This document shows positions 9,032 through 39,856 of a stretch of 64,000 bases of DNA, piece by piece. The number at the start of each line of letters is the position of its first letter. Positions within the stretch are counted from its first letter, which is position 1. The stretch spans positions 1,116,001-1,180,000 of the forward strand of contig LT549889.1 in the NCBI GenBank assembly GCA_900078775.1, given 5' to 3'. The translations under genes were made by a program, and so were the position numbers. A model generated the notes under the pieces. That model had not been told where the DNA came from, ran no database searches, and was given only the letters and a program-made list of their open reading frames with translations. The stretch comes from Mycolicibacterium aurum (GTDB lineage Bacteria; Actinomycetota; Actinomycetes; Mycobacteriales; Mycobacteriaceae).

Positions 9032-9041
9032 CAGGATACTG
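9032..9041. promoter_or_regulatory. Shared operator motif, site A
   Basis: CAGGATACTG followed by ATTAAGG, an imperfect palindrome with ideal form CAGTATACTG. It lies in the 120-base gap between the divergent acyl-CoA dehydrogenase genes; the rightward gene leads into the mce operon. On the minus strand it contains TATCCT, a fit to the mycobacterial -10 form TANNNT. Six similar sites occur at other promoters of this window. Confidence 0.65.
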
Positions 9042-9086
9042 ATTAAGGTAAATCTGGTTCCGTCGACGTGGATAGGGGAGGGTGCC

Positions 9087-10262
9087 GTGCACCTCGGGCA
9101 AGACGCAGAACTCGACGTCCTGCGCAAGCGTGTCCGCGAACTCGCCGCTCGGCACGCACCGCCCCGGCACGGGCGCACCGGCGTGCGGGCGCCGGAGCCC
9201 GAGCAGATCCCCGCGCTGCGGAAATGGACCGGCATGCTGTTTGCCGAAAACCTGCTCGGCGTGCACTGGCCGGTGGCGTACGGGGGCCTCGACAACCCGC
9301 ACCCGCTGCACGAATCGGTGGTGACCGACGAGTTGATCCGAGCGGGCGCGGCCGGGCCGGTCGGCGGTGGTCTGCTCGCGGCCGCGGCGATCATCTCCTC
9401 GGGCAGCACCGAGCAGAAGGACTACTTCCTGCCCAGAATCCGCTCCGGTGAGGACATCTGGTGCCAGCTGTTCAGTGAACCGGAGGCGGGCAGTGACCTG
9501 GCCGGACTGCGGACCAAGGCCCGCCTGGACGGCGATTCCTATGTGGTCGACGGACAGAAGGTGTGGACCACCAACGGTCAGCACGCAGACTGGGGTTATC
9601 TGCTGGCCCGCACCGATCCGGATGCGCCCAAACACGCCGGGATCACCGCCTTTGCTCTGGACATGAACGCCCCGGGTGTGACGGTGCGCCCGCTGCGCGA
9701 GATCACCGGTACCTCGGACTTCAACGAGGTGTTCCTCGACGGGGTCCGGATCCCGGCCGACCGGGTGATCGGGGAGGTCAACCACGGCTGGGCCGTCACC
9801 ACCGCCAGCCTGGCCCACGAACGGTCCAGTGCCGGCAGCGGCGCCTCGTTGTTCGGTGCACTGGATAGGTTGGGGCGCTTGGCCACTGAGGTCACCCGAA
9901 ATGGTTGCCGGGCCATCGACCGCGACGACGTGCGGCAGGCCATCGGCGGCTTCGTCGCCGACGTGCAGGTGAACTCCCTGGTCTCCGCGTTCGGCGACAG
10001 CCGGGCCCTGCACGGCAGCGGTGACGTCGCCGACGCGCCGGTGTCGAAGATCCTGTTCAGCGAGATCAACCTGGCGTTGCACGAATACGGCATGCAACTG
10101 CAGGGCCACGACGGGGTGCGGGTGGAGGGCGACCCGCTGGTGCGCGACGACGGCTGGTGGCAGGACGCATTCCTCTACGGGCGGGCGTTCACCATCGCCG
10201 GTGGCACCAACGAGGTGCTGCGCAATGTGATCGCCGAGCGGGCACTGCAACTGCCCAGGTGA
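9087..10262 (+). CDS. Acyl-CoA dehydrogenase (FadE), first gene of the mce transcription unit
   Basis: A 391-residue FAD-dependent acyl-CoA dehydrogenase. Visible motifs are WCQLFSEPEAGSDLAGL and VVDGQKVWTTNGQHADW (FAD and substrate binding), ITGTSDFNEVFLDGV, and the C-terminal AGGTNEVLRNVIAERAL. The GTG at 9087 is preferred because GGGGAGGG precedes it; the longer upstream frame runs antisense through the neighbouring gene. It probably pairs with the divergent enzyme at 7839-8966, as FadE heteromers are common in mycobacterial sterol and branched-acid degradation. Only 37 bases separate it from yrbEA, so uptake and first oxidation are likely co-expressed. Confidence 0.92.
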   Translation: MHLGQDAELDVLRKRVRELAARHAPPRHGRTGVRAPEPEQIPALRKWTGMLFAENLLGVHWPVAYGGLDNPHPLHESVVTDELIRAGAAGPVGGGLLAAAAIISSGSTEQKDYFLPRIRSGEDIWCQLFSEPEAGSDLAGLRTKARLDGDSYVVDGQKVWTTNGQHADWGYLLARTDPDAPKHAGITAFALDMNAPGVTVRPLREITGTSDFNEVFLDGVRIPADRVIGEVNHGWAVTTASLAHERSSAGSGASLFGALDRLGRLATEVTRNGCRAIDRDDVRQAIGGFVADVQVNSLVSAFGDSRALHGSGDVADAPVSKILFSEINLALHEYGMQLQGHDGVRVEGDPLVRDDGWWQDAFLYGRAFTIAGGTNEVLRNVIAERALQLPR

Positions 10263-10299
10263 CTTTTGGCGTCGACGTTCGAAATGGGGGAGGGGCGAA

Positions 10300-11148
10300 T
10301 TGGCGGACACACCGCGACCGCCGTCGCCGGTCGGTGACATCACCCGGTGGTCGAAGGGTTACGTCGACCGGCACCCGGTCGCCTCGTTGGAAACCGTTGG
10401 CCTGCAGTGCATTCTCGGGATGCGCGCGCTGCAGTACCTGGTCCTCGACATCGTCAGGTGGCGTTTCTCATTCCCCGAGTTCGTGCATCAGGCGGCATTC
10501 ATGGCCTCTACCGCCATGCTGCCCACCATGTGCGTGGCCATCCCCATCGGGGTCACCCTGCAGATCCAGTTCGCCCTGCTGGCCGGGCAGGTCGGCGCCA
10601 CGTCGCTGGCCGGCGCCGCCAGCGGCCTCGCGGTCATCAAACAGGGCGCGCCGCTGGTCGCGGCGCTGCTGATGGCCTCCGCGGTGGGCTCGGCCATCTG
10701 CGCCGACCTCGGCTCACGCACCATCCGCGAAGAGGTGGATGCCCTTGAGGTGCTGGGTATCTCGGCCATCCGACGACTGGTGGTGCCCCGGCTGGCGGCC
10801 GCCATCGTGGTCAGCGTCGCGCTGACCGGGCTGGTCTGTTTCATCGGATTCCTGGCCGGCTACCTGTTCAACACCTTCGTGCAGGAGGGCGCACCGGGCA
10901 GCTTCGTCACCACGTTCGCCTCCTTCGCGACCGTCGGGGACCTGGTGCTCACCCTGATCAAGTCGGTGGTGTTCGGAGCAATCGTCGCCATCGTCGCGTG
11001 CCAGAAAGGGTTGAGCACCAAGGGTGGTCCGGCCGGTGTCGCCAATTCCGTCAACGCCACGGTGGTGGCCTCGATCCTGTTGCTGATGATCACCAACGTC
11101 ATGTTCACCCAGATGTACGTCCTGCTCTTTCCGAAGGCGGCCCTGTAG
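10300..11148 (+). CDS. yrbEA: Mce-associated permease YrbEA (MlaE family)
   Basis: Integral membrane permease of the Mce lipid importer; the YrbE pair forms the inner-membrane channel driven by an MceG-type ATPase (not in this window). The 282-residue protein has about five or six hydrophobic segments and the MlaE-family EEVDALEVLG motif before LVVPRLAA. The TTG start at 10300 follows a purine-rich GGGGAGGGG stretch. Its stop shares a base with the GTG of yrbEB. Which numbered mce operon this corresponds to cannot be decided from sequence reading alone. Confidence 0.92.
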   Translation: MADTPRPPSPVGDITRWSKGYVDRHPVASLETVGLQCILGMRALQYLVLDIVRWRFSFPEFVHQAAFMASTAMLPTMCVAIPIGVTLQIQFALLAGQVGATSLAGAASGLAVIKQGAPLVAALLMASAVGSAICADLGSRTIREEVDALEVLGISAIRRLVVPRLAAAIVVSVALTGLVCFIGFLAGYLFNTFVQEGAPGSFVTTFASFATVGDLVLTLIKSVVFGAIVAIVACQKGLSTKGGPAGVANSVNATVVASILLLMITNVMFTQMYVLLFPKAAL

Positions 11149-12002
11149 TGGCGGCGCCGTACTACCCCCGCGGCGTCCGGCCGATCGTCGCCGCGACCAC
11201 CGCGGTCGGCGACGTCGGGATCCGGCTCGGCCACATGCTCACCTTCTTCATCCACGCGGTGGCGGCGATCCCGGTGGCGCTGACCCGGTACCGCAAGGCC
11301 TTTCTCACCGTGCTGTCCGACGTCACCTGGGGCAACGGCTCGATCGTGGTCGGCGGCGGCACCGCCGGGGTGATCATCGTGCTCGGCGCCACCGCCGGGG
11401 CGATCGTCGGTATCGAGGGTTATCAGGCGCTGCACCTGCTGGGCATGGAACCCGCAGCCGGGCTGCTGTCCTCCACGGTGTCCACTCGCGAACTGGCCCC
11501 GATCATGGCGGCGCTGGCGTTCGCCGCGCAGGCCGGTTGCCGGTTCACCGCCCAGCTCGGCTCCATGCGCATCTCCGAGGAGATCGACGCGATGGAATCG
11601 CTTGCCATCCGCCCGATCCCGTACCTGGTGACCACCCGGCTGCTGGCCTCGGTGCTGGCCATCATTCCGCTCTACATCCTGTGCCTGGTGGTGAATTACG
11701 CGGCGGTGCAAACCATCGTGACGTTCGCCGGCGGCCTGTCCGGGGGCACCTTCGACCACTACTTCCGGCTGGTGCTGACCGGCACCGACATCGTGTACTC
11801 GGTGATCAAGGCGATCGTGTTCGTCACCATCACCTCGACCATCCAGTGCTACTACGGATATTTCGCCAGCGGCGGTCCCCAGGGCGTCGGCGTCGCCGCG
11901 GGCCGGGCCATGCGGGCCAGCATCTCGGTGATGATCATCGCCAACCTGCTGCTCACCATCGGGTTGTGGGGCATCGGCTCCGGCGCGCGGTTGGGTGGTT
12001 GA
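11148..12002 (+). CDS. yrbEB: Mce-associated permease YrbEB (MlaE family)
   Basis: Second permease subunit of the Mce importer, 284 residues. It has the family motif SEEIDAMESLAIRPIPYLVTTR and several hydrophobic segments, including GTAGVIIVLGATAGAIVG and SVLAIIPLYILCLVV. The GTG start at 11148 overlaps the yrbEA stop (TAGTG), giving translational coupling. It lies three bases before mceA. It should act with YrbEA as a heterodimer in the cytoplasmic membrane, passing lipid delivered by the MceA-F tube. Confidence 0.92.
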   Translation: MAAPYYPRGVRPIVAATTAVGDVGIRLGHMLTFFIHAVAAIPVALTRYRKAFLTVLSDVTWGNGSIVVGGGTAGVIIVLGATAGAIVGIEGYQALHLLGMEPAAGLLSSTVSTRELAPIMAALAFAAQAGCRFTAQLGSMRISEEIDAMESLAIRPIPYLVTTRLLASVLAIIPLYILCLVVNYAAVQTIVTFAGGLSGGTFDHYFRLVLTGTDIVYSVIKAIVFVTITSTIQCYYGYFASGGPQGVGVAAGRAMRASISVMIIANLLLTIGLWGIGSGARLGG

Positions 12003-12005
12003 GCG

Positions 12006-13364
12006 ATGACCCAACGCCTCGAATCCGCCGAACGGGCCTACTCCAAGGGCCAACTGCTGCTGCGTGGGCTGGCCCTGATCACCGTCACCCTGGTGCTGTC
12101 CGCGGTCGCCGTCGCCAAGTCCGAGGGCGTGTTCTCCGACCGCGTAGCGGTCGTCGCCATGCTCGGCAACGTCGGTGATGGACTGCCGTCGGGATCGGAC
12201 GTCAAGTTCCGCGGCGCGCTGGTCGGCACCGTCGAGGACGTGTCACCCGCTATCGACGGACGCCCCAACGAGGTCCTACTGAGCCTGGATCCGCACTTCG
12301 CACCGGCGATCCCGGCCAACGTCACCGCCCGGGTGGTGCCCAGCAACGTGTTCGCGGTGTCCTCCATCCAGCTCGTCGACAACGGCCCCGCCCCCGCGCT
12401 GCGCGCCGGATCGCAGATAACCCAGGACGAGAGCCTGGCCACCGTGCAGTTCCAGACCGCGCTGACCAAACTGCGCGATGTGATGGCCGCGGCCGGCCGG
12501 CCCGGATCCGACAACACGGTCGGCGTGCTGGCAGCGGTGGCCGAGGCCACCAGCGGCCGCGGCGACGAACTGACCCAGGCCGGCAGCGGCGCCAATCGGA
12601 TCGTCAAGGAACTCAACGCCCAAATGGCCCCCGGCGGAGACGAACAGACCCTGATGGTGCTGTCGGATGCGCTCGACGGGCTGCAGCACTCCTCCCCGGA
12701 TCTGGTGGAGGCGGTGCACAACGCGGTCGTCCCGATGCGCACGGTCGCCGAGAAGCGCCAGGAACTGGCCAGATTCCTGTCCGCCGGGCACACCACCTTC
12801 GCGACCGTCGCCGAGGCCTTCGAGAACAACACCGACACCCTCATCGTGATCACCACCGGGTTGTCCCCGGTGCTCGGTGTGCTCGCCGACGGCGAGAAGG
12901 AGTACGCGCCGATGGTGACCCGCATCCACGATGTGGTGAACCGGTTCTTCACCCACGTGTGGAAGGCCGACCGCAATACCGCCGTCGGCAAGTTCCTGTT
13001 GGTCTTCACCCCGAACAAGATGTACACCCGGGCGGACTGCCCGCGGTACGGACACCTGGAGGGGCCGAGCTGCCAAACCGCGCCATTGACCGCGGACCCG
13101 CCGATCCTGCCGCGGGTGGCCGATCCGCGCAATTACCCACCGCCACCGCCGATGTCGGGCGGCAACGTCGGCTCGGTGGGCGGCCCCGCCGAACGCGCCC
13201 AACTGGCCGAGATCCTCGGCCCGGAACCCAACGCCGCCTCCGAACTGCTGCTCGGCCCGGTGGCCCGGGGTAACACCGTGCAGGTGATCCCGGACCCGGC
13301 CGGCACCGCCGCCGGGCCGGCGTTGGCCGCCGAGGCCACACCACCGGCAGGGGAGGGGCCGTGA
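12006..13364 (+). CDS. mceA: Mce family protein MceA
   Basis: First MCE-domain subunit (452 residues) of the lipid importer. One N-terminal transmembrane helix (LALITVTLVLSAVAVA, near residues 22-37) is followed by the MCE domain (VAMLGNVGDGLPSGSDVKFRGALVGTVEDV), a long helical region, and a Pro/Gly-rich tail beginning around NYPPPPPMSGG. Predicted topology places most of the protein outside the cytoplasmic membrane. ATG at 12006. The stop overlaps the mceB GTG (GTGA). Mce subunits assemble as a heterohexamer that spans the cell wall space. Confidence 0.93.
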   Translation: MTQRLESAERAYSKGQLLLRGLALITVTLVLSAVAVAKSEGVFSDRVAVVAMLGNVGDGLPSGSDVKFRGALVGTVEDVSPAIDGRPNEVLLSLDPHFAPAIPANVTARVVPSNVFAVSSIQLVDNGPAPALRAGSQITQDESLATVQFQTALTKLRDVMAAAGRPGSDNTVGVLAAVAEATSGRGDELTQAGSGANRIVKELNAQMAPGGDEQTLMVLSDALDGLQHSSPDLVEAVHNAVVPMRTVAEKRQELARFLSAGHTTFATVAEAFENNTDTLIVITTGLSPVLGVLADGEKEYAPMVTRIHDVVNRFFTHVWKADRNTAVGKFLLVFTPNKMYTRADCPRYGHLEGPSCQTAPLTADPPILPRVADPRNYPPPPPMSGGNVGSVGGPAERAQLAEILGPEPNAASELLLGPVARGNTVQVIPDPAGTAAGPALAAEATPPAGEGP

Positions 13365-14398
13365 GCTACCGTCGCCCGCTGATCTTGCTGGGTGTCTTCC
13401 TGGCCGTGTGTTTCGCGCTGATCTGGACGGTGTTCGTCACCCTGCAACGCAACGTCAGCGGCCGCACCGACTCCTACACCGCACTGTTCACCGACGTCTC
13501 CGGGCTCAAGGTCGGCGACGAGGTGCGGATGGCCGGGGTCAAGGTGGGCCGGGTGGACACCGTCGGCCTCGACGGCGACCTGGCCCGTGTCGGCTTCCGG
13601 GTGGAATCCGATCAGTCGCTCTACGGCAACACCCGGGTGTCCATCGACTACCAGAACATCATCGGGCAGCGTTACGTCGGGCTGTCCCTGGCGGAGTTCG
13701 GAGATCCGCGGGTGCTCGAGCCCGGCACCGTGATCCCGGTGTACCGCACCCAGCCGTCCTTCGACATCTCCAAGCTGCTCAACGGGTTCGAGCCGCTGTT
13801 CGCGCTGCTCAACCCGCAACAGGTGGACAATCTGACCACCGCCATCGTGCGGGCCATGCAGGGCGACGCCGGCTCGGTCACCACCCTGATCGCCGAGACC
13901 ACGCGCCTGGCCGAATCGTATTCGGGGACCGACCAGATCCTCGACGGGGTGCTGGCCAACCTCGACACCGTCCTGGACTCGGTGGCCGAACGCGGCGGCG
14001 ACCTGGACTCCACCATCGTCTCGGCCAAGACCCTGTTCGACGGATTCGCCGTCCGCCGAGAGGAATTCGTCACCTCCCTGGATCAGACCTCGATCGTCGC
14101 GCAGCGGCTGTCGACGGTGATCGGCGATGTGCAACCCGACCTGCAGGAGTGGCTGTCTCGCGAACCCGGCTTCGCCAAACACTTCATGGACGACAAGCAG
14201 GGCTTCGCCTACATGGCGTTCAACACCCCGCTGATGCTCAAGGGCCTGGCCCGGATGAGCCAGACCGGTTCGTATCTGGACGTCTATGCCTGCGACCTCA
14301 CGGTCAGTCAGTTCCCGCGGATCGACAGCCTCATCGCCCAGATCGTCGCGTCCGGGACACCCGGCGGTGTGTCGCAACGGAGTTCGAAGTGCCGGTGA
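13361..14398 (+). CDS. mceB: Mce family protein MceB
   Basis: Second MCE subunit, 345 residues. An N-terminal membrane anchor (LILLGVFLAVCFALIWTVFV) precedes the MCE domain with ALFTDVSGLKVGDEVRMAGV and the following VGRVDTVGL strand; the C-terminal half is helical and ends with Cys-containing DVYACDL. It overlaps mceA by four bases and lies seven bases before mceC, so it belongs to the same transcript. It is expected to be one of six non-identical chains of the importer; substrate specificity is not evident. Confidence 0.93.
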   Translation: MSYRRPLILLGVFLAVCFALIWTVFVTLQRNVSGRTDSYTALFTDVSGLKVGDEVRMAGVKVGRVDTVGLDGDLARVGFRVESDQSLYGNTRVSIDYQNIIGQRYVGLSLAEFGDPRVLEPGTVIPVYRTQPSFDISKLLNGFEPLFALLNPQQVDNLTTAIVRAMQGDAGSVTTLIAETTRLAESYSGTDQILDGVLANLDTVLDSVAERGGDLDSTIVSAKTLFDGFAVRREEFVTSLDQTSIVAQRLSTVIGDVQPDLQEWLSREPGFAKHFMDDKQGFAYMAFNTPLMLKGLARMSQTGSYLDVYACDLTVSQFPRIDSLIAQIVASGTPGGVSQRSSKCR

Positions 14399-14405
14399 GG
14401 ACACC

Positions 14406-15440
14406 ATGAGAATCAGAGCAGTGCTGCGTCGGCCGGTGGAGAGCCACGGCGCGCTCCGGGTCGGGGTGATCACCGTGTCGGTCCTGGCCGTGATGCTGGG
14501 CACCGCGCTCGGCCTGGGTCGGCTGGGCCTGGGCAAGACCCTCTACACCGCTGAGTTCGCACAGGCCGCCGGCATCTCGGCCGGCGATCAGGTGACCGTC
14601 GCCGGGGTGCGGGTCGGGTCGGTCAAGGGCCTGCGACTGGAGGACGACCATGTCGCGGTGACGCTGGAGGTCGGCAACGAGGTGCAGCTGGGAGCCGCCA
14701 CCCGGGCCGAGGTCAAGCTGACCACCCTGCTGGGCGCCCGCTACGTCGACCTGCGGCCCGGCGGCTCCGGTGAGCTGAGCGGCGGCCGAATCCCGTTGTC
14801 GCACACCGAAGTGCCCTACGATCTACAGGCCGCCCTTCAGGACGCGACCACCACCTTCGAGGCCGTCGACGCGGAGAAGATAGCCGAGTCGATGACCAGC
14901 CTGTCCGAGCAGTTGCAGGGTGCCCCGGAGATCCTGCCGCAGGCCCTGGACAACATCGAGCACCTGTCCTCGGTGATGTCGGCCCGGCGCAACGAGATCG
15001 GCGATCTGCTGCGCAGCACACAGCGGGTCGCCGAACTGCTGGGCAACCAGCAGCGCAGCCTCGGACTGCTGATCACCCAGGGCCACGAGGTGCTGACCGA
15101 CCTGGCGGCCCGGCGGCAGATGATCGTGCGGTTGATCGGCGCCACCACCAGGCTGGTCGACGAACTGCAACCGGTGCTGATCGACAGCCGCCCACAGGTG
15201 GACGAACTGCTGAAGAACCTGGAGGGCATGCTCTCGGCGGTCGGCCGCAACGATGCGCTGCTGCGCAACACCCTGCAGATCCTGCCGGTCCCGATCCGCA
15301 ACTTCGCCAACGCCACCGGCAACGGCAACGAATTCGACTTCACCTCCTCCGGCGGCACCATGATCGACTCCTGGATGTGCGCCATCAGCGGCCGCGCCAT
15401 CCAGTTCAACCTGCCGCACTACTTCGAGGACTGCGGATGA
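14406..15440 (+). CDS. mceC: Mce family protein MceC
   Basis: Third MCE subunit, 344 residues from the ATG at 14406. A membrane anchor (VGVITVSVLAVMLGTALGLG) is followed by the MCE domain (TAEFAQAAGISAGDQVTVAGVRVGSVKGL) and long amphipathic helices. The last residues include a Cys-rich pair (WMCAISG and FEDCG) seen in several Mce proteins. The stop overlaps the ATG of mceD (ATGA). A longer frame upstream is not preferred because it would run back into mceB. Confidence 0.92.
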   Translation: MRIRAVLRRPVESHGALRVGVITVSVLAVMLGTALGLGRLGLGKTLYTAEFAQAAGISAGDQVTVAGVRVGSVKGLRLEDDHVAVTLEVGNEVQLGAATRAEVKLTTLLGARYVDLRPGGSGELSGGRIPLSHTEVPYDLQAALQDATTTFEAVDAEKIAESMTSLSEQLQGAPEILPQALDNIEHLSSVMSARRNEIGDLLRSTQRVAELLGNQQRSLGLLITQGHEVLTDLAARRQMIVRLIGATTRLVDELQPVLIDSRPQVDELLKNLEGMLSAVGRNDALLRNTLQILPVPIRNFANATGNGNEFDFTSSGGTMIDSWMCAISGRAIQFNLPHYFEDCG

Positions 15441-16543
15441 GCCGCGGCGCGGTCGCCAAGCTGCTTGCCGTCGTCGCCATCACGCTGGCGGCGTGCGGAT
15501 GCTCCAGCGGTCCGCTGGCGGCGTTGGACCGGGGCATGACGATCACCGCGCAGTTCGACAACGCCAGCGGCCTGTACGAGGGCAATGCGGTGGCCGTCCT
15601 GGGCATGCCCGTCGGCAAGATCGAAAAAATCGTGCCCAAGGGGCAGTACGTCGATGTCACCATGCGCATCGACGGCGGCGTGCAGATCCCGGCCGACGCC
15701 CAGGCCGTGACCCTGTCGACCTCGATCCTCACCGACCGGCACATCGAGTTCACCCCGGTGTACCGCGGCGGGCCGACCCTCGCCGACCACGACCACCTCG
15801 GCCTGTCCCGCACCCGCACGCCGGTCGAGTTCGACCGGGTGCTGGCCATGGTGGACAAGCTCGCCGTCGAGATGCAGGGCGACGGTGGTGGAGCGGGCCC
15901 GATCGCCGACCTGCTCAACATCAGCTCGGCCATGACCGGCGGCAACGGGCCCGAGATCCGGTCGGCGCTCGGCGAGCTGTCCACCGCGCTGAAGATGAGC
16001 GAGGACCGCGGCAAGCCCACCGGTGACGCCATCACCACCATCGTCACCAACCTGGAGCGGCTGACCAAGGCGGCCTCCGACAACGACCGCACCATCCGCG
16101 AATTCGGCACCGCCATGCGGCAACTGACCGCCGTGCTGGCCAGTGAGCGGCTGGGCAGCGGATCGACCGGAGCTCAGATCAACCAGGTGCTCACCGCGAC
16201 CACCGACCTGCTGGAGGTCAACCGGAAGAACCTGGAGTCGACGGTCGGCGGCACCCAGGCCGTGACCCGGGCCATCGCCGACTACCGCCGGGAGATGGCC
16301 GAGGTGCTCGACCTGGCGCCGATGGTGCTCGACAACGTCTACAACATGATCGACCACGAGAAGGACGCCATCCGGGCGCACCCGACGCTGGACAAGATCG
16401 AGCTGAACGGCCAGTTCACCAAGGAGGTGTGCAATCTGCTGGGGTTGCGCCAACTCGGTTGCGCGACCGGTACGGTCGCCGACTTCGGACCGGACTTCGG
16501 GGTGACGAGCATGCTTGAGGGATTGGCAGGGCTGGGGCCGTGA
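15437..16543 (+). CDS. mceD: Mce family protein MceD, predicted lipoprotein
   Basis: Fourth MCE subunit, 368 residues. The N-terminus is a lipoprotein-type signal, KLLAVVAITLAAC, with the lipobox Cys near residue 20, so it is probably lipid-anchored rather than helix-anchored. The MCE domain (AQFDNASGLYEGNAVAVLGM, VGKIEKIVPKGQYVDV) and helical C-terminal half follow. In many mce operons only the E subunit is lipidated; here D and E both carry a lipobox. ATG at 15437 overlaps the mceC stop; the stop overlaps the mceE GTG. Confidence 0.9.
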   Translation: MSRGAVAKLLAVVAITLAACGCSSGPLAALDRGMTITAQFDNASGLYEGNAVAVLGMPVGKIEKIVPKGQYVDVTMRIDGGVQIPADAQAVTLSTSILTDRHIEFTPVYRGGPTLADHDHLGLSRTRTPVEFDRVLAMVDKLAVEMQGDGGGAGPIADLLNISSAMTGGNGPEIRSALGELSTALKMSEDRGKPTGDAITTIVTNLERLTKAASDNDRTIREFGTAMRQLTAVLASERLGSGSTGAQINQVLTATTDLLEVNRKNLESTVGGTQAVTRAIADYRREMAEVLDLAPMVLDNVYNMIDHEKDAIRAHPTLDKIELNGQFTKEVCNLLGLRQLGCATGTVADFGPDFGVTSMLEGLAGLGP

Positions 16544-17748
16544 GGTACACACTGATTCGGCGACTCGCGGCCGGGGCCACCGTGCTCGCGCTGACCTCCT
16601 GTTCGGTGGGTCTGGACGGCCTGCCGCTGCCCGCGCCCTCGGCCGGGCAGCAGACCTACCCGATCGGCGCCACCTTCACCGACGCGCTCAACCTGCCCGC
16701 CAAGGCCAAGGTGCGACTGTCCGGCGCCGACGTGGGCGAGGTGGAATCCATGCAGGCGCGCGATTACACGGCCGTGGTGACCCTGCGGATCGCCGCCGAC
16801 GTGCAGATCCCGGCGGGCACCAAGGCCGAATTGCGTTCGGCCACCCCGCTCGGCGACGTCTTCGTATCCCTCTCGCCCCCGCCCGGTCTGGTGCCCGGTG
16901 CGCCGATGATGCGGCCCGGTGACACGATCGGATTGGCGTCCACCGCCTCCGCGGCCTCGGTGGAAGAGGTGCTCAGCACGGCGGCGCTGCTGGTCAACGG
17001 CGGCGCGATCCGAAATCTCACCAAGGTGATCAACGGCATGGGCGAGGCCGTCGGCGGCAAGGGCGAGGACCTCGGCCGATTCATCGACGAGTCCACCCAA
17101 CTGATCGACAGCCTGTCGCAGCGGTCGGTGCTGATCAAACAGGCGCTCACCCAGACCGGGGACGTGGCCGCGGTGCTGGCGCAGCGGCAGGAGTCGATCA
17201 ATGAGGCGATCGAGGCCGCCGGCCCGGCCCTGGGCACGCTGGCCGACAACACCGACCGGATGGTCGACCTGGTCGCCCAGGTCAACCGGATCATGCTGCA
17301 GCTGGCCAAGTTCCCGTCGATACGCGGGGAGGAGACCCGCAGCATGATGGCCGACCTGAACCGGCTCTCGGCCGGGATGAACGAGGCCTCGATCGCCCCC
17401 GGCGCCTCGTTGGCCAGGTTCAACACGCTGTTCGGCCCGATCCTGAAACTCACCAATTCCACGTCCGCGCACGTCGACATCGACCTGGCCGACCTGGCGG
17501 TCGGCGCCTTCGCCGACCCGTACCATCCCGCCGACCCGGGCAGTCGCGCCCCAACCCGGGAGGACTTCCGCAACATGGTCGGCAGCATCACCTACGAGCT
17601 GATCAAGGTCCGCGACAAGTTCTGGGGTGCACCCACCCCGCCGCCGGGGAATGTGCCGCCACCCAACCTGATCGGACCCGCCCCGCATGCGCTCACCCCG
17701 GCCCCGCCGCCCCCGGGCCTGCCCGCACCGCCGGAAGGCACACCGTGA
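16540..17748 (+). CDS. mceE: Mce family lipoprotein MceE
   Basis: Fifth MCE subunit, 402 residues, corresponding to the LprK/LprN-type lipoprotein of other mce operons. Signal peptide with lipobox VLALTSC (Cys near residue 22) is followed by the MCE domain (TFTDALNLPAKAKVRLSGADVGEVESM), a helical stretch, and a Pro-rich tail near residues 365-402. GTG at 16540 overlaps the mceD stop and its own stop overlaps the mceF GTG, so the whole A-F run is tightly coupled. Confidence 0.92.
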   Translation: MRYTLIRRLAAGATVLALTSCSVGLDGLPLPAPSAGQQTYPIGATFTDALNLPAKAKVRLSGADVGEVESMQARDYTAVVTLRIAADVQIPAGTKAELRSATPLGDVFVSLSPPPGLVPGAPMMRPGDTIGLASTASAASVEEVLSTAALLVNGGAIRNLTKVINGMGEAVGGKGEDLGRFIDESTQLIDSLSQRSVLIKQALTQTGDVAAVLAQRQESINEAIEAAGPALGTLADNTDRMVDLVAQVNRIMLQLAKFPSIRGEETRSMMADLNRLSAGMNEASIAPGASLARFNTLFGPILKLTNSTSAHVDIDLADLAVGAFADPYHPADPGSRAPTREDFRNMVGSITYELIKVRDKFWGAPTPPPGNVPPPNLIGPAPHALTPAPPPPGLPAPPEGTP

Positions 17749-18998
17749 TCCGCGGCCTGCTGAACGCATTGGGCTACGCCCGGGAGCGTCGACTGGGGCT
17801 CTCGGCGCTGGCCCTGTTGATGATGTTCGTCATCGGCGTGGTGTACCTGCTGTTCGGCACCCTCAAGCTGGACCCGGCGCGCTCGGACAAGCTGGTACGC
17901 GTGCATCTTGCCGAGACCGGCGGACTGCTGCCCGGACAGGACGTGACGCTGCGCGGTGTCCCGGTGGGCCGGGTCCGGTCGATCGATCTGGCCGGTGACG
18001 GGGTGGTCGCCATCGCCGCATTGCACCCGGACGCCGAGATCCCGACCGACAGCGCGCTGCGGGTGTCCGCGCTGTCCCCGGCCGGCGAGCAGTACCTCGA
18101 TTTCCGTGCCGACCGCAACGACGGCCCGTATCTCCATGACGGCAGTGAGATCGACCGCGACGCAACGAGTACGCCGGTCACCCTGGGCACCCTGCTGGGC
18201 AACCTGGACGGCACCTTGGCGCAGATCGAGACCGCGAAACTCAGTGCGGTACTCGACGAACTGCGGGTCGGGCCCGACGGCGGCGAGAAGCTGGCCGCCA
18301 TCCTCGACGGTGGCGCATTCCTGGTCTCGACGCTGGATTCGGTGCTGCCGCAGACGGTGAGCCTGTTCAACACCAGCCGGGTGGTGCTGGCCACCGTCCG
18401 TGACGTCAATCCCGGTCTGGCCTCCACCTCCACTGACCTGTCCGCGGTCCTGGACGGGGTGCAGCGGATGGACGGTGGCTATCGGACCCTGCTGGACCGC
18501 GGACCCGGCACGATGGCGGGACTCGACGACATCATCGCCGACAACTCGCCGACCATGGTGCAGCTGCTCGGAAACCTGACCACCGTCTCCCAGTTGGCCT
18601 ACCTGCGGGTGCCCGCCCTGGAGGAGTTCCTGTTCCCGCAGTACCGGGCCGGGTCGGCGCTGGAGGCCCTCGGCAGCAGCTTCCGGGACGGCGGCGTGTG
18701 GGGCGCGGTCAGCCTGTACCAACGGTATTCGTGCGACTACAACCTGCCGCACGCTCCGCCGACGCTCGCCGATCACCCGGAACCCTATCTGTACACCTAC
18801 TGCCCGAACCCGGATCCCAAGTACCTGGTGCGCGGTGCGCGCAACGCCCCCCGGCCTCCGGGGGACGACACCGCCGGGCCGCCGCCGGGCGCGGACCCGT
18901 TGCGGCGCGCCGATCCGACCCCGACCGGGCCGCTGACCATCCAGACCCCGTACGCGGGGCCGATCCTGCCGGTGCCGCCGGCGCCGAGCGGGCCGTGA
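17745..18998 (+). CDS. mceF: Mce family protein MceF
   Basis: Sixth MCE subunit, 417 residues. One membrane segment (LGLSALALLMMFVIGVVYLLFG) is followed by the MCE domain (VHLAETGGLLPGQDVTLRGV, VGRVRSIDL), helices, and a C-terminal part with Cys residues (YSCDYNLPH, YTYCPNPDPKY) and a long Pro/Gly-rich tail. The GTG at 17745 overlaps the mceE stop. It completes the A-F set; no gene of the set is missing or visibly broken. Confidence 0.92.
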   Translation: MIRGLLNALGYARERRLGLSALALLMMFVIGVVYLLFGTLKLDPARSDKLVRVHLAETGGLLPGQDVTLRGVPVGRVRSIDLAGDGVVAIAALHPDAEIPTDSALRVSALSPAGEQYLDFRADRNDGPYLHDGSEIDRDATSTPVTLGTLLGNLDGTLAQIETAKLSAVLDELRVGPDGGEKLAAILDGGAFLVSTLDSVLPQTVSLFNTSRVVLATVRDVNPGLASTSTDLSAVLDGVQRMDGGYRTLLDRGPGTMAGLDDIIADNSPTMVQLLGNLTTVSQLAYLRVPALEEFLFPQYRAGSALEALGSSFRDGGVWGAVSLYQRYSCDYNLPHAPPTLADHPEPYLYTYCPNPDPKYLVRGARNAPRPPGDDTAGPPPGADPLRRADPTPTGPLTIQTPYAGPILPVPPAPSGP

Positions 18999-22231: not shown

Positions 22232-22248
22232 TCGCATTCTCCTTGATT

Positions 22249-22258
22249 CCGGATACTG
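22249..22258. promoter_or_regulatory. Shared operator motif, site B
   Basis: CCGGATACTG followed by AGTAAG. One half (ATACTG) matches the consensus fully, the other (CCGG) poorly. It lies 17 bases upstream of the aldehyde dehydrogenase start and about 80 bases upstream of the GntR regulator start. Confidence 0.55.
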
Positions 22259-25468: not shown

Positions 25469-25477
25469 CGTATCGTA

Positions 25478-27512: not shown

Positions 27513-27527
27513 AGGAGACTCCTCATT

Positions 27528-27537
27528 CAGGATACTG
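27528..27537. promoter_or_regulatory. Shared operator motif, site D
   Basis: CAGGATACTG followed by TTTGAG, in the gap between the leftward thiolase gene and the rightward SDR gene. It contains TACTGT on the plus strand and TATCCT on the minus strand, both TANNNT forms, so binding would block both promoters. Confidence 0.65.
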
Positions 27538-27646
27538 TTTGAGATGATTAGATATCAGCGGGGCGTGTAGGGCAAGTGTGCACGCACCGTGCACCGCCGC
27601 ACTCGCGAGATTCCTCCGACAGCGTCGGCGGCGAGAAGGGAAAATC

Positions 27647-28414
27647 ATGCGTATCAACGGAATTTCGGCTCTGGTGACGGGTGCGTCCTCCGGGCTGGGG
27701 CGAGCCACCGCAACCCGGCTGATCGACGAGGGCGCCGCAGTCGTGCTGGTCGATCTGCCCACCTCCGATGGGGCGAAGGTGGCCGCCGAACTCGGTGAGC
27801 GGGCCACGTTCGCTCCCGCCGACGTCACCGACTCCACTTCGCTGGAGGCCGCCCTGGCCACCGCGGAGGCGAACGGGCCGTTGCGTGCGGTGGTGCACTG
27901 CGCCGGCCGGGGAGGCGACCGGCTGCGCATCCTGGACAAGGAGGGCAACCCGGCCGACCCCGATTCGTTCGCGGAAGTGTTGCGGGTCAACCTGATCGGT
28001 ACCTACAACGTGTTACGGCTGGCGGCGGCCCGGATGGCCCGCAACGAGCTGCTGGACGGCGACCGGGGCACCGTCGTGATGACGGCGTCGGTGGCGGCCT
28101 TCGACGGACAGATCGGGCAGACGTCCTACACCGCATCCAAGGCCGGCGTGCACGGCATCACCCTGGTGGCCGCCCGCGATCTGGCGTCCTATCAGATCCG
28201 GGTCAACTCCATCGCTCCCGGTACGTTCGACACCGCCATGCTGGCCCGGTTGCGCGACGACATCCGCCAAGGCCTGGCGGATGCGATCCCGCATCCGAAA
28301 CGCCTCGGCGACGCCGACGACTATGCACACCTCGCGGTCAGCCTCATCGAGAACGAGTTCGTCAACGGCGAAACCATCCGGCTGGACGGGGCGCTGCGGA
28401 TGGCGCCCCGCTAG
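27647..28414 (+). CDS. Short-chain dehydrogenase, HSD10-like 3-hydroxyacyl-CoA dehydrogenase
   Basis: A 255-residue classical SDR. NAD(P)-binding motif TGASSGLGRA near residue 11, acidic Asp after the second strand (VLVDLPT, favouring NAD+), and active-site YTASKAG with the upstream Ser in MTASVAAFDG. The wording resembles type-2 3-hydroxyacyl-CoA dehydrogenases, which fits the thiolase and hydratase neighbours, but other alcohols are possible. ATG at 27647 follows GAGAAGGG. Its stop overlaps that of the convergent acyl-CoA ligase by a few bases (CTAG). Confidence 0.88.
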   Translation: MRINGISALVTGASSGLGRATATRLIDEGAAVVLVDLPTSDGAKVAAELGERATFAPADVTDSTSLEAALATAEANGPLRAVVHCAGRGGDRLRILDKEGNPADPDSFAEVLRVNLIGTYNVLRLAAARMARNELLDGDRGTVVMTASVAAFDGQIGQTSYTASKAGVHGITLVAARDLASYQIRVNSIAPGTFDTAMLARLRDDIRQGLADAIPHPKRLGDADDYAHLAVSLIENEFVNGETIRLDGALRMAPR

Positions 28415-29982
28415 ACCTGGCGACCGGATCCGGCCCAGTAGGAATCCCGGATCTGCCGCTTGATCAACTTGCCGGTCTCGGTGCGGGGCAACGCGGAATC
28501 GAAGTCGACGCTGCGGGGGCATTTGAATCCGGACAGCCGGGCCCGGCAGAACGCGATGATGTCCTCGGCGAGCGCGTCGGAGGGTTCGACGCCGTCGACC
28601 GGTTCGACCACGGCCTTGACCTGCTCACCCCACTCCGGGTCGGGGATGCCGATCACCGCGACGTCACCGATCGCCGGATGGCTGGCCAGCACCCCCTCCA
28701 CCTCGGCAGGGTAGATGTTGACCCCGCCGCTGATGATCATGTCCTTGGCGCGGTCACAGATGAACAGGTAGCCGTCATCGTCGAGATAACCGACATCGCC
28801 GATGGTGAAGGCCGATCCGCGGTGCACCGATGCGGTGAGTTCGGCGTCGTTGCGGTACTCGAAGCTCTGGCCGTCGGTGCGGTCGATGTAGACGTCGCCG
28901 ATGGCGTTGGGCGGCAACGGCCGGCCCTCGTCGTCGAGAATGAGCACCCGCACCCCGCGCACGGTGCGCCCGACGGTGCCCGGCTTCTCCAGCCAGCGAT
29001 GGGGTTTGGCGATCGTCGCCGCGCCCTCGGTACCGCCGTAGGTCTCCCAGATCACCGGGCCCCACCAGGCCATCATGTCCTTCTTGACCTCCAGCGGGCA
29101 GGGCGCCGCGGAGTGCACGATGCTGCGCAGGCTGGACACGTCGTAACGGTCGCGGACCTCTTGGGGGAGTTTGAGCATCCGGACGAACTGGGTGGGCACC
29201 ATGTACGCGGTGCTCACCGCGTACCGCTCGATGGCGGCCAGGGTCCGCTCGGCGTCGAATTTGCCCAGGATGGCCAGCGCCTGACCGACGTTCAGCGCAC
29301 CCAGATAGAAGCTCTGGCAGCCCGCGTGATGCATACCGGTGGACACCAGGTGCACGCCGTGCAGTGGCTGGAAGTCGAATGCGCGCCCGAAGATCGCCAT
29401 CGCGTGGGCGGCTTCGGAGGGGTCGCGCCCGTCCAGTGCGCGGACGATGCCCTTGGGCTTGCCGGTGGTCCCCGACGAGTACCGGATGGAGTCGCCCTGC
29501 CGGCGGTCGGCGGGCGGGGTGTCGGGGTGCCCGGCCAGGAAGTCGGCCTCGGTGACGAACCCGCCCGGCGCGCCGGCGTCACCGCCGAGGACGATCCGCA
29601 GGCCGGCCCCGGCGGTGCCGGCGGTCGCGAAGCTGTTCAGGTGCTCGACATGGGTGACCAGGACCGTGGCCCCCGAATGGTCCAGGATCGAGGCGAATTC
29701 ATCCCCGGCCAGCGCGGTGTTCAGGGCCAGGTAGCGCAACCCGATCTCGGTGGTCGCGAGCTGCCAGATCACCGCATCGACGTCATTGGGTAGCGCGTAG
29801 GCCACCACATCCCCGTCGCTCAGGCCGTGCGCGCGCAGCGCATTGGCCACCCGGTGCGCCGCGGCGGCCAGTTCGCCGAAGGTCAGGGTGCGTCCGCTGG
29901 GGGATGCGACGATGGCCGGGGCGGCCGGGTGATCCTCGGCGATCCACCACACGCCGAGGCGCTGATCCCACGGATGCTGCAT
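28411..29982 (-). CDS. Acyl-CoA ligase (FadD)
   Basis: ATP-dependent formation of acyl-CoA through an acyl-adenylate; 523 residues. Motifs: YSSGTTGKPKGI (P-loop), TYGGTEGAATI, IGDVGYLDDDGYLFICDR and the C-terminal Lys in PRTETGKLIKRQ. The ATG at 29982 is preferred over the adjacent TTG because GGGAGG is four bases upstream of the ATG but only one base from the TTG. Expressed from operator site E. It is closely similar in motif wording to the ligase at 46728, notably RMLKLP and VRDRYDVSSLR, so the two may be paralogues with related substrates. Confidence 0.93.
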   Translation of the reverse strand: MQHPWDQRLGVWWIAEDHPAAPAIVASPSGRTLTFGELAAAAHRVANALRAHGLSDGDVVAYALPNDVDAVIWQLATTEIGLRYLALNTALAGDEFASILDHSGATVLVTHVEHLNSFATAGTAGAGLRIVLGGDAGAPGGFVTEADFLAGHPDTPPADRRQGDSIRYSSGTTGKPKGIVRALDGRDPSEAAHAMAIFGRAFDFQPLHGVHLVSTGMHHAGCQSFYLGALNVGQALAILGKFDAERTLAAIERYAVSTAYMVPTQFVRMLKLPQEVRDRYDVSSLRSIVHSAAPCPLEVKKDMMAWWGPVIWETYGGTEGAATIAKPHRWLEKPGTVGRTVRGVRVLILDDEGRPLPPNAIGDVYIDRTDGQSFEYRNDAELTASVHRGSAFTIGDVGYLDDDGYLFICDRAKDMIISGGVNIYPAEVEGVLASHPAIGDVAVIGIPDPEWGEQVKAVVEPVDGVEPSDALAEDIIAFCRARLSGFKCPRSVDFDSALPRTETGKLIKRQIRDSYWAGSGRQV

Positions 29983-30011
29983 CAAACCTCCCGCTGTCCA
30001 ATTAGATAGAA

Positions 30012-30021
30012 CAGTATCCTC
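30012..30021. promoter_or_regulatory. Shared operator motif, site E
   Basis: CAGTATCCTC; on the minus strand GAGGATACTG followed by TTCTATC. It lies 30 bases upstream of the ligase ATG at 29982 and supplies a TACTGT -10 form on that strand. There is no plus-strand gene here, so the site serves the ligase only. Confidence 0.6.
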
Positions 30022-30069
30022 AATTGAGGTTTCGGGGAAGTCTGCACCGCCGTTCGGTCGGGTTCGGTG

Positions 30070-31518
30070 TCAGATGGTTTCGGGTGCGGTCTCGGTCATG
30101 TGGGCACGCATGCGCATGACCGCGAGTTCGGAGTCGCCCGCCAGCAGCGCGTCGGCGATACCGCGGTGCGCCGGTCCCACCACCGCGGGCAGGGATTCGG
30201 ACATGGCGCTCAGTCGCGGATCCCCGCCGGCGACCTGTTCGAAGAACTGCCAGCCCAGCCGCATGGTGACCCGATGCAGCAGTTCGATCGCGTTGTTGCC
30301 GGTGAGCGCGCCGAGCATGGAGTGAAAGTCCTCATCGCTGCCGAACGCCTGGGCCACACCATGTTCGGTCTCGGCGCGCAGGGCGGCCTCGATCTGCTCG
30401 GCGTACCCGGCCGGGTCGGCCGCGGTGCGGATCCGGTCGGCCGCCCGGACCACCACGGCCAGCTCTAGGCCGGTGCGCAGTTCCAGAATGTGCCGCAGCG
30501 AGACCCCGCGGCGGCGCAGATAGATCGCGATGATGTCGGTCAGCGCGGCCATGTCGGGCTCGGCGACGAACAGCCCGCCGCCCGGGCCGCGCCGGGTCAC
30601 CGCGATCTGGTGATACTCCAGGATGCGGATCGCCTCACGCACCACGGCCCGGCTCGCCTGGTGCTGTTCCATCAGGCCGGCCTCGGAGCCGACGAACGTG
30701 CCCGGGCTGGCCCCCGAATGTGCGATCCAGGTGAAGATCTCGCGGGCCAGCGCCTCGCCGCGCTTGTCCCCGATCGCCCCGGTCAACGCGACGGTCGGGT
30801 CCAGGCGCTGCACCGTGCCGGGCTGATTGCGGATGTACTCGGCCTCGGCGCTCAGGTGCCGCTTCATCCGCTCGCGGGCCAGGCCCGCATTGTTGGTCAG
30901 GATGGCCCGGGCGATCGCGTCGTGGGCATGGCGCACACCGTCGGCCAGACCGTCGGGGCGGGTGACGTGCTCGTCGAAGTACAGGTTGCTGACCCGGCTG
31001 AACGTCTCGACGAACAGCTCCAGCAGCGGGTTGGCCGTCAGCTCGGCGAGTTGGCGGTGCAGCAGCCGGGCGTTGGTGGCGGTGCCGGCCGCCTCGCGTT
31101 CCAGGGTGTCGCGCACCGCGGCGATGTCGGCCTCCCCGGCCCGCCGGGACGCGATCTCGGCGACCAGTTCCTCCAACAGGATTCGGGAATCGAAGATCTC
31201 GTCGAGGGTGGCGCCCACCCGTAGCAGATAGATCACCGCGGGCCCGATCACGGCGTCGATATCGGGTTCGCTGATGACCAGTCCACCGCCGGTACCGCGC
31301 CGCATCCGCGCCACATGCTGGTGCTCGACCAGCCGGATCGCCTCGCGTAGCACGGCGCGGCTGACCCCGTAGCGTTCCAGCAGTTCGGTCTCCGAACCGA
31401 GCACCTGCCCGACCGGCCAGCCCAGCTCGATGACGTCGGCGACGATCTGCTCGGCGGCCCGGCCGGCCAGCTTGGCCCGGCGCGAATCGACCCGGGGCGC
31501 GATCAGTTCAGGGCTCAC
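30070..31518 (-). CDS. Tandem double GntR/FadR transcriptional regulator
   Basis: A 482-residue protein made of two complete FadR-type units in a row. Unit 1: winged helix at about residues 15-85 (YGVSRAVLREAIRLVE, RRGTGGGLVISEPD) and FCD domain about 95-235. Unit 2: winged helix about 250-320 (QASRAVVREAIRILE, RRGPGGGLFVAEPD) and FCD about 330-475. Ordinary members have one unit of about 240 residues and act as dimers, so this chain may work as a covalent dimer. GTG at 31518, four bases after the enoyl-CoA hydratase stop, so expressed with it from site F. A candidate regulator of the whole cluster. Confidence 0.88.
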   Translation of the reverse strand: MSPELIAPRVDSRRAKLAGRAAEQIVADVIELGWPVGQVLGSETELLERYGVSRAVLREAIRLVEHQHVARMRRGTGGGLVISEPDIDAVIGPAVIYLLRVGATLDEIFDSRILLEELVAEIASRRAGEADIAAVRDTLEREAAGTATNARLLHRQLAELTANPLLELFVETFSRVSNLYFDEHVTRPDGLADGVRHAHDAIARAILTNNAGLARERMKRHLSAEAEYIRNQPGTVQRLDPTVALTGAIGDKRGEALAREIFTWIAHSGASPGTFVGSEAGLMEQHQASRAVVREAIRILEYHQIAVTRRGPGGGLFVAEPDMAALTDIIAIYLRRRGVSLRHILELRTGLELAVVVRAADRIRTAADPAGYAEQIEAALRAETEHGVAQAFGSDEDFHSMLGALTGNNAIELLHRVTMRLGWQFFEQVAGGDPRLSAMSESLPAVVGPAHRGIADALLAGDSELAVMRMRAHMTETAPETI

Positions 31519-31522: not shown

Positions 31523-32359
31523 TCACCGGTAGACCGGCGCTCCGTTGCGGCGGGGCGTGGCCCGGCGCTCGTCCAGGGGCGGGTTGCCGATATGGGTATA
31601 GGCCATCCCGTTCTGCAGCGCGGTCGACCTCGTCATATCCAAAGACTCCCATATCGCCCGGACGCTGCCTTGGATGGCCGTCGGGCTGCGGGTGGCGATG
31701 GAGGCCGCGATGGCCTGCGCGCGGTCCCACAGGGCGTCGTGGGCGACCACCTCGGACACCAGGCCGATGCGCAGCGCGGTGGCCGCCGAGATGCGCTCCT
31801 CGGTGCCCATCAGGGCCCAGCGCAGCACCTCGCCGAGTGGAACGCCACGGTGCAGCATCCCGATCGGTTCCAGCGCCGAGACGATGGAGGCGTTGGCGTG
31901 TGGGTCGAAGAACGAGGCCTCCTCCGAGCAGATGATGATGTCGGATTCGTTGAGCAGGTACTGGGCGCCGCCGGCGGCGAATCCGTGGACCGCGGTGACG
32001 ACCGGCTTCCAGCATCGGTGATGCAGCTTCGGCGAGATGACCGTGCCCGGGTCGAAGGTGTTCCAGATGTTGGTCCGGAAGAACCAGCTGCCATCACCTT
32101 TGACGTCCACGCCGGTGCAGAAGGCCTTGTCCCCGGCGGCCCGTAGCACCACCGCGTGGATGTTGTCGGTGTCGCGCACCGTCTGCCACGCCCAGGCCAG
32201 CTCGCGGGCCATCTGCCCGGATATCGCATTCATGGCGTCCGGCCGATTCAGGGTGATCGTCGCGACGTGGTCGTCACCGACGGCGAACTCGATGTGCTCC
32301 AAGGTGACCGGATCGATTCCCTGGGTTTGCAGATCGTCATGGGGGGTAGCGAAAATCAT
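31523..32359 (-). CDS. Enoyl-CoA hydratase/isomerase family protein
   Basis: A 278-residue crotonase-fold protein. NRPDAMNAISGQM and AVVLRAAGDKAFCTGVDVKG (oxyanion-hole region) and VHGFAAGGAQYLLNESDIIICSE with the second oxyanion Gly are present. The usual catalytic Glu of hydratases near ASFFDPHAN is not obvious, so isomerase or another crotonase reaction is possible. The ATG at 32359 has no ribosome site but lies exactly seven bases after a TACACT -10 form within operator site F, consistent with a leaderless transcript. Followed immediately by the double GntR gene. Confidence 0.88.
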   Translation of the reverse strand: MIFATPHDDLQTQGIDPVTLEHIEFAVGDDHVATITLNRPDAMNAISGQMARELAWAWQTVRDTDNIHAVVLRAAGDKAFCTGVDVKGDGSWFFRTNIWNTFDPGTVISPKLHHRCWKPVVTAVHGFAAGGAQYLLNESDIIICSEEASFFDPHANASIVSALEPIGMLHRGVPLGEVLRWALMGTEERISAATALRIGLVSEVVAHDALWDRAQAIAASIATRSPTAIQGSVRAIWESLDMTRSTALQNGMAYTHIGNPPLDERRATPRRNGAPVYR

Positions 32360-32365
32360 AGAAAT

Positions 32366-32375
32366 CAGTGTACTA
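32366..32375. promoter_or_regulatory. Shared operator motif, site F
   Basis: CAGTGTACTA; on the minus strand TAGTACACTG followed by ATTTCT. The arms TCAGT and ACTAA make it one of the more symmetrical copies. It sits between the leftward hydratase-GntR operon and the rightward P450 operon and overlaps the TACACT -10 form of the leftward promoter. Confidence 0.65.
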
Positions 32376-32477
32376 ATGAAGCCGGATCGACGATGTGTAA
32401 CGGAGAAGTTGGCCGGGCGGGTCCGCGGGCCGGGGTTTGTGCCCGGGCCAGTGAGCGGGACACCGATGGGAGAGATC

Positions 32478-39405: not shown

Positions 39406-39838
39406 GCGCGGCCGGAGCGAACACCGGGACGTACACCGTCCCGGTGTCCTGCGGGTGCGCCTCGAACCGCACGGTCAGCGGCATTCCGGTGACCAGGTCC
39501 CCGGGATCGCAGTCGACGATGTTGGTCACCATGCGCAGCTCGGCCTGTTCGGCCAGTTCCACCACCGCGATGATGAAAGGCGTTGGCACGCTGGGATGGA
39601 ACTGCTGATGGGCGACCGTGTAGGTGAACAACGTGGCGGCGCCGGAGACCGCGACGAACTCACAGGCGCCGTCGCAGTCGGGGCAACCCGCACGGGGCGG
39701 GAGGACGAATCGTCCGCACGGCGCGCAGTGCTGCACTCGCAGCACCCCGTCGGCGCCAGAGGTCCAGAACGGGCGGGTGGCCTCGTCGAGTGCGGGCAGG
39801 ATCCGGGGCGCGTTCGCCGAAACCGGTGATGTCGTCAC
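39398..39838 (-). CDS. DUF35 OB-fold protein with zinc ribbon
   Basis: A 146-residue protein. A zinc ribbon, CAPCG with CPDC 15-20 residues on, precedes an OB-fold (AATLFTYTVAHQQFHPSVPTPF). Proteins of this family act with thiolase-like partners; in steroid degradation the pair Ltp2-DUF35 is an aldolase. The GTG at 39838 (VTTSPVSANA) lacks a ribosome site but is seven bases after TACTGT on this strand, matching a leaderless start within operator site G. Divergent from its likely partner at 39886. The 3' end overlaps the double dehydrogenase by 8 bases. Confidence 0.85.
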   Translation of the reverse strand: MTTSPVSANAPRILPALDEATRPFWTSGADGVLRVQHCAPCGRFVLPPRAGCPDCDGACEFVAVSGAATLFTYTVAHQQFHPSVPTPFIIAVVELAEQAELRMVTNIVDCDPGDLVTGMPLTVRFEAHPQDTGTVYVPVFAPAALT

Positions 39839-39846
39839 ACAGAGAA

Positions 39847-39856
39847 CAGTACACTG
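39847..39856. promoter_or_regulatory. Shared operator motif, site G
   Basis: CAGTACACTG followed by ATTAAGC; apart from the central two bases this is a perfect palindrome. It lies between the divergent DUF35 and thiolase-like genes and holds TACACT on the plus strand and TACTGT on the minus strand, both -10-like. Confidence 0.7.

Follow-up and report, generated by a model that had tools for sequence, protein, structure and literature searches.

The window analysed here, a stretch of 64,000 nt of Mycolicibacterium aurum (contig LT549889.1, 1,116,001-1,180,000; all coordinates below are those of the window), contains a 31-kb gene cluster that is predicted to import and degrade a lipid. According to Pfam, the cluster encodes FadD, acyl-CoA dehydrogenase (ACAD), enoyl-CoA hydratase/isomerase (ECH), MaoC-like, thiolase, CoA-transferase, aldehyde dehydrogenase (AldDH) and P450 proteins, together with an mce importer. 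Seven copies of a short, operator-like element lie in gaps preceding its genes, all at the positions given in an earlier, sequence-based reading of this DNA (hereafter the original prediction). Five of the gaps (A, B, D, F and G) separate divergent genes, in line with the claim that most of them do; C and E lie between genes of the same direction. As argued below from sequence comparison, the seven elements are likely bound by the cluster's own regulator, GntR2, a tandem GntR-FCD-GntR-FCD protein that would repress the cluster genes as a pseudo-dimer. The sites and the main genes are as follows.

Site A, 9030..9055, + strand (core at 9032): gap between ACAD1 (-) and ACAD2-yrbE-mce (+); extended operator TACAGGATACTGATTAAGGTAAATCT.
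Site B, 22247..22272, + strand (core at 22249): gap between AldDH (-) and GntR1 (+); the weakest operator-like site, 27.7 bits.
Site C, 25476..25501, + strand (core at 25478): upstream of the DUF7065 gene, which is on the - strand.
Site D, 27526..27551, + strand (core at 27528): gap between a thiolase (-) and an SDR (+) gene; 31.4 bits.
Site E, 29998..30023, - strand (core at 30012): upstream of FadD1 (-); core GAGTATACTG.
Site F, 32352..32377, - strand (core at 32366): upstream of the ECH1-GntR2 operon (-), in the ECH1/P450 gap; the extension spans the ECH1 ATG.
Site G, 39845..39870, + strand (core at 39847): gap between DUF35 (-) and the thiolase-like Thiol2 (+).
ACAD1, 7839..8966, - strand: acyl-CoA dehydrogenase (Pfam; start by inspection).
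ACAD2, 9069..10262, + strand: acyl-CoA dehydrogenase, first gene before yrbE/mce (Pfam on the longer frame 8406-10262; start approximate).
yrbEA-yrbEB-mceA-F, 10300..18998, + strand: importer operon behind site A (Pfam MlaE, MlaD, Mce4_CUP1).
AldDH, 20750..22237, - strand: aldehyde dehydrogenase (Pfam).
GntR1, 22329..23132, + strand: ordinary single GntR-FCD regulator, alternative candidate binder and possibly itself a target (Pfam GntR and FCD).
DUF7065 protein, 24617..25468, - strand (Pfam).
FadD1, 28411..29985, - strand: acyl-CoA synthetase (Pfam AMP-binding).
GntR2, 30070..31518, - strand: tandem GntR-FCD-GntR-FCD regulator of 482 amino acids (Pfam GntR and FCD in each half).
ECH1, 31523..32359, - strand: enoyl-CoA hydratase/isomerase, first gene of the ECH1-GntR2 operon (Pfam ECH_1).
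P450, 32478..33701, + strand: divergent from ECH1 across site F (Pfam), followed by MaoC, ECH2, APH and fused ACAD genes.
Thiol2-FadD2-SDR2-luciferase-like-AveC-like genes, 39886..45497, + strand: behind site G (Pfam).

The element was initially described as a plain 10-bp palindrome. A near-palindromic core, ideally CAGTATACTG, is indeed shared, but the signal is longer and one-sided, with the extended consensus WWNAGKAYACTGATTWAGNTNATT and class-weighted frequencies of WW-NAGKAYACTG-ATTWAG-N-T-N-ATT (the GntR1 class and the false coding matches at Thiol2 being omitted from these frequencies). In all aligned classes the extension is found on one and the same side of the core, and it is retained whether the gene runs along its direction (ACAD2), runs opposite to it (DUF7065) or starts within it (ECH1). 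A mere -10 box is therefore unlikely. The original prediction had set the motif against the KstR, KstR2 and IdeR sites only, with no match. The FadR-subfamily GntR consensus operator is NyGTM-N0-1-KACNy (PMC4494728). The ideal core, with its centre GTATAC, fully fits this consensus, as do the 8 of the 21 FadD1 sites (the site E class) that carry the same symmetric centre. The window sites all miss one position: in 7/7 of their cores one FadR-type half is perfect and the other one base off (GGATAC or GTACAC). A -10 form, TANNNT, had also been noted in most copies, and we find TATCCT, TACTGT or TACACT within six of the seven cores or overlapping their edge. At site F the ECH1 ATG follows seven bases after such a form, a spacing in keeping with a leaderless start. 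If the DUF35 reading frame is taken at its maximum length, site G overlaps its 5' end; the true DUF35 start probably lies further inside.

The number of sites in the window, taken alone, is not significant: 8 matches are found at no more than two mismatches, for 5.03 (standard deviation 2.07) expected, and 13 of 100 shuffles reach 8. Six of these matches are sites listed originally, and site C, with 3 mismatches, escapes. Their location in the genome is more telling. At no more than one mismatch, CAGTATACTG occurs at 4 places in the 6.04-Mb genome, against 30 per strand in a backwards-read control, so that we are dealing with a rare motif and not an over-represented one; 3 of the 4 places fall within the 31-kb stretch (nominal binomial chance of at least three of the four landing in the cluster, 5e-7), and the fourth is inside a reading frame of 196 amino acids and carries no AT-rich extension. 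The core with its right-hand extension, NAGKAYACTNWTNNAGN, is matched exactly at 4 genomic places, all of them cluster sites (A, C, D and G). With one mismatch allowed it has 13, against 22 in the backwards control, and only the exact class is thus informative.

Profile searches gave the same picture. R1, a sequence-only profile made from 30 relatives' sites without any row from the window, has six matches genome-wide at E<=10, which are A, G, C, E, F and D, all in the cluster (E from 7e-4 to 0.33, the weakest being site D at 0.33); site B is missed in this search. An extended matrix, trained for each genome with its closest relatives excluded, finds 118 matches of at least 20 bits in 22 stretches, some sites matching in both orientations; 112 are noncoding and the 6 nominally coding ones are site G. 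One hundred column-permuted matrices average 0.65 matches and reach 15 at most. The motif is thus not, in this genome, equally common within genes or at unrelated promoters, the outcome named originally as speaking against a regulon. Strong sites occur only in the cluster, before ACAD1, ACAD2-mce, DUF7065, FadD1, ECH1-GntR2 (shared with P450) and Thiol2, with a weak one at AldDH/GntR1.

Conservation was assessed in a sample of 248 genomes of the genus, the counts including the window. The close set comprises 20 genomes besides the window that have a GntR2 ortholog (at least 68% identity), plus M. vaccae (L001); three further loci, L002-L004, look like G174, G150 and G226 (same sites) and were excluded from the counts. 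Site A is kept at ACAD1 and at ACAD2 in 12/12 clusters each in which the gene start is covered, site C upstream of DUF7065 in 20/21 clusters, and site E upstream of FadD1 in all 21. Site F is found upstream of ECH1 in 18/20 clusters at threshold, and a 19th (G150) carries TAGTACACTC. At Thiol2, site G is present in 15/18 clusters at threshold, two of these being chance coding matches, and in 18/18 when TAGTACACTC forms are counted. Genes presumed to be internal to operons have no sites: AcotII 0/16, CoAtr3 0/21, GntR2 0/22, MaoC 0/19, yrbEA 0/19 and FadD2 0/18. Scanning the relatives thus shows A, C, E, F and G kept at the same genes of orthologous clusters. These five conserved sites, the confinement of the strong sites to the cluster and the six internal genes without a site give good support to the proposal that one regulator controls the cluster from 7.8 to 45.5 kb, the mce operon behind site A included.

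Some relatives have additional sites, before FadD3 (G150, G073, G226 and G174) or beside an AveC-like gene (G150), and in the G232 cluster homologs of SDR, GntR, CoA-transferase, DUF35 and thiolase have been inserted as a set. To judge from these sequences, regulon membership seems to change between species.

Two GntR-type proteins, at 22341 and 30070, had been put forward as candidate binders. Our results favour the latter, GntR2, and disfavour GntR1; the tandem fusion of GntR2 had gone unnoticed. GntR2 does not have the ordinary one-unit form (one winged helix-turn-helix plus FCD, about 220-260 amino acids), being composed of two units over its 482 amino acids. In Pfam scans the whole protein scores 54 bits for GntR (cut-off 27), its first half 35.5 bits, and the two FCD domains 57.5 and 50.5 bits (cut-off 24.3); GntR and FCD are the only domains found, TetR domains being absent from these scans. 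The halves are identical at 75 of 221 aligned positions, and their recognition helices, SRAVLREAIR and SRAVVREAIR, are nearly identical, which suits a near-palindromic core. AlphaFold places both halves of the full chain confidently (predicted local distance difference test score, pLDDT, 89; predicted template modelling score, pTM, 0.88). The best 50 of 658 Foldseek matches, the nearest solved folds, are single-unit GntR-type chains, with no tandem one among them.

GntR2 has matches at E<=1e-30 in 99 of the 248 genomes, some of them over one half only: 21 are the orthologs of at least 68% identity, and 78 more genomes have distant matches, again some over one half only. Homologs of similar length, with 47-51% identity, are also present in Acidimicrobiales assemblies (P0087, P0106 and P0122); their presence there suggests that the tandem fusion is older than the genus.

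The distant proteins provide a second gene setting in which the element can be compared. Of the 78 genomes, 33 were examined, plus a second copy in G012. Their tandem GntR proteins are 37-40% identical to GntR2 and are encoded in a different cluster, SDR-fused ACAD-DUF35-Thiol2'-GntR2'. The core CAGTACACT[CT] is found directly upstream of Thiol2' in 31/31 distant tandem-GntR loci that contain this gene, plus L182 (32/32). Of the 22 distant-class stretches that include the start of the fused ACAD, 20 have AAGTACACTC before it (it is missing in L092 and L130). For comparison, we retrieved 39 Thiol2' loci, a subset of the copies of this kind, whose fetched stretch contains no tandem GntR; 35 come from genomes without a GntR2 match at E<=1e-30 and 4 (L145, L147, L148 and L151) from genomes that encode GntR2 elsewhere, where they are second copies. 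The exact core is found in 1 of the 39 (L160), a one-base variant in 16 and neither in 22. The association of core and tandem GntR (32/32 vs 1/39) gives a Fisher value of 2e-19, which is nominal, the genomes being related. In sequence terms, the core is seen to accompany the tandem GntR in a second gene context.

Several observations weigh against GntR2 as the single binder of a uniform set of seven sites. The original set holds together for A, C, E, F and G but not for the other two: site B reaches threshold only in the window (1/21 at GntR1, 1/20 at AldDH), relatives commonly having altered forms with the left half and the extension intact, and for site D at the thiolase the window is the one cluster of 4 that has it at threshold, G150 having a related form. 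SDR1 (2/4 clusters with a site at threshold) and FadD3 (1/8) are mostly without one. The GntR score of the second half of GntR2, 23.2 bits, is below the curated cut-off, and the AlphaFold model is a monomer without DNA, with which a dimer of tandem chains would also be compatible. R1 matches 21 of the 248 genomes at E<=0.02, the very 21 that have a GntR2 ortholog of at least 68% identity, but these positives are circular, as R1 was trained on sites of genomes that it matched, and its 227 negatives concern the long form only, as it misses the distant-class genomes, which have the core with another extension; moreover, related genomes are not independent. In the distant class, the second tandem GntR copy of G012 has no Thiol2' beside it and no core near the gene, and the tandem GntR locus of G098, also without Thiol2' beside it, shows, in the gap from GntR2' to a FadD-like gene, no more than the weaker GAGGACACTG (14.4 bits). 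The one-base-off cores of the 16 Thiol2' promoters without tandem GntR (AAGTACAGTC in 6, AAGTACATTC in 6 and CAGTACGCTC/T in 4; L143-L181) look as if they were decaying sites or sites of another regulator with a related taste. Finally, G245 has kept GntR2 (69%) and lost the cluster, and its sole R1 match is on another contig. This extended site (31.4 bits) precedes a reading frame that looks glutaminase-like by inspection; around GntR2, an ECH1 fragment remains and nothing else of the cluster is present in 40 kb.

It is rather unlikely that GntR1 (22329-23132) is the binder, either alone or together with GntR2, for example with GntR2 on the core and GntR1 on the extension. Site B lies at the promoter of GntR1 itself, where in most relatives only the right half of the core is altered, and 20 of the 21 genomes that have an ortholog of GntR2 also have one of GntR1, a co-occurrence that cannot separate the two candidates within the genus. 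G245, which has GntR2 and no GntR1 match, was considered as a separating case and fails as such, its cluster being lost. Against GntR1, its own site is the least conserved of all, whereas sites E and F, which flank GntR2, are among the most conserved; furthermore, the core is present in all 31 distant tandem-GntR loci, and the 21 genomes that have a GntR1 match at E<=1e-60 include none of theirs. A regulator encoded elsewhere, of the GntR or another family, with GntR2 as a mere neighbour, is improbable. The exact core of L160 and the 16 near-forms at loci without tandem GntR would agree with such a regulator. Against it, the exact core is tightly linked to an adjacent tandem GntR in a second, different gene cluster, the strong sites are confined to the cluster of the window, and the ideal core matches the FadR-subfamily consensus.

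That the repeats are simply shared -10 promoter elements, without any dedicated regulator, is very improbable. TANNNT forms are present at most cores, as described above, and in some extensions; a general promoter element would nevertheless be expected genome-wide, and the present one is confined to the cluster, keeps its extension whichever way the gene runs, overlaps a start codon at site F and is missing in its exact form from 38 of the 39 Thiol2' copies without a nearby tandem GntR. As for chance similarity of AT-rich gaps, with which the window count at two mismatches would be compatible, being within the shuffle range, it can be discarded for practical purposes, as it is ruled out by the conservation and by the permuted-matrix controls.

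FCD domains bind small acids, and FadR itself binds acyl-CoA esters. With GntR2 as the binder, one chain, folded as a pseudo-dimer, would occupy each core and would also contact the right-hand extension. As GntR2 on the core would cover the -10 region, repression is the likely mode of action, and binding at site F would result in autoregulation of ECH1-GntR2. Given the ligands of FCD domains and the lipid enzymes of the cluster, release would likely be triggered by a pathway intermediate, an acid or an acyl-CoA, binding to the FCD domains. The whole pathway, mce importer included, could in this way be switched on and off together.

Two details of gene content are worth adding. The thiolase behind site D (26352-27494, - strand) looks interrupted in this sequence: a stop codon follows residue 50 and splits its single frame into 50 + 329 residues. 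In G200, a near relative, SDR comes within about 150 bp after site C, which leaves no space for this thiolase. At 35817-39405 (+ strand), the gene of an APH-type kinase and that of a fused double acyl-CoA dehydrogenase overlap, a pair which we take to resemble ACAD10/11 and Lva-type 4-hydroxyacyl-CoA phosphorylation and elimination; by this analogy, it could hint at a 4-hydroxy-acid step.

In the open-licence literature, we found no description of a tandem GntR-FCD protein or of this motif. Our results offer a definition of the putative binding site of tandem GntR-FCD proteins, together with a candidate binder. They also tie an mce importer to one catabolic cluster, so that the substrate of the importer could be traced via what derepresses these promoters.

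Among known systems, the KstR and KstR2 regulons provide a parallel in which one repressor locally controls a lipid catabolic cluster, including an mce operon in the case of KstR; these are TetR repressors with different operators. Among other mycobacterial regulators, Mce1R is a single GntR-FCD unit of ordinary length, and Rv3060c is about 490 amino acids long. Rv3060c has been named a FadR-type GntR (PMC9927256). Mce1R (Rv0165c) is a FadR-subfamily GntR repressor of mce1 and is thus, like the regulator proposed here, a member of this subfamily tied to an mce operon; it differs in that the cited account links it to the mce1 operon only (PMC2277422). Ms0535 of M. smegmatis is a GntR/FCD regulator, reported to be an activator, with a footprinted 26-bp palindrome at its own promoter and no further site found genome-wide; it shares the mycobacterial GntR-FCD type, but its operator sequence is unrelated to the cluster motif (PMC4609117). 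With the FadR subfamily in general, GntR2 shares the winged helix-turn-helix and the FCD-type domain, and the ideal core fits its consensus (PMC4494728). It departs from this subfamily in its tandem fusion and in the window sites, which match the consensus perfectly in one half only and have the conserved extension on one side.

Mce3R of Mycobacterium tuberculosis is a fusion of two TetR units, with two nonidentical helix-turn-helix motifs and a 25-bp nonpalindromic operator before mce3 (PMC11667970). Like GntR2, it thus contains two regulators of the same family in one chain, and it controls lipid-metabolism genes and an mce operon and is autoregulated (PMC11667970). It differs by its family and by its operator, which in our case consists of a near-palindromic core with a one-sided extension, with a separate copy at many promoters of the local cluster. 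Mce3R is the best published parallel and the closest one, and GntR2 would work like it from within another family. One tentative possibility, which we would put slightly below even chances, is that mycobacteria have a widespread class of single-chain double GntR repressors, whose two unequal winged helix-turn-helix domains read a lopsided operator, a near-palindrome with a one-sided AT-rich arm centred about one helical turn away. They would be an independent GntR counterpart of the double-TetR Mce3R, serving here as the private switch of an undescribed, mce-fed lipid pathway. The comparison with Mce3R would show whether fused repressor units repeatedly serve to read asymmetric operators.

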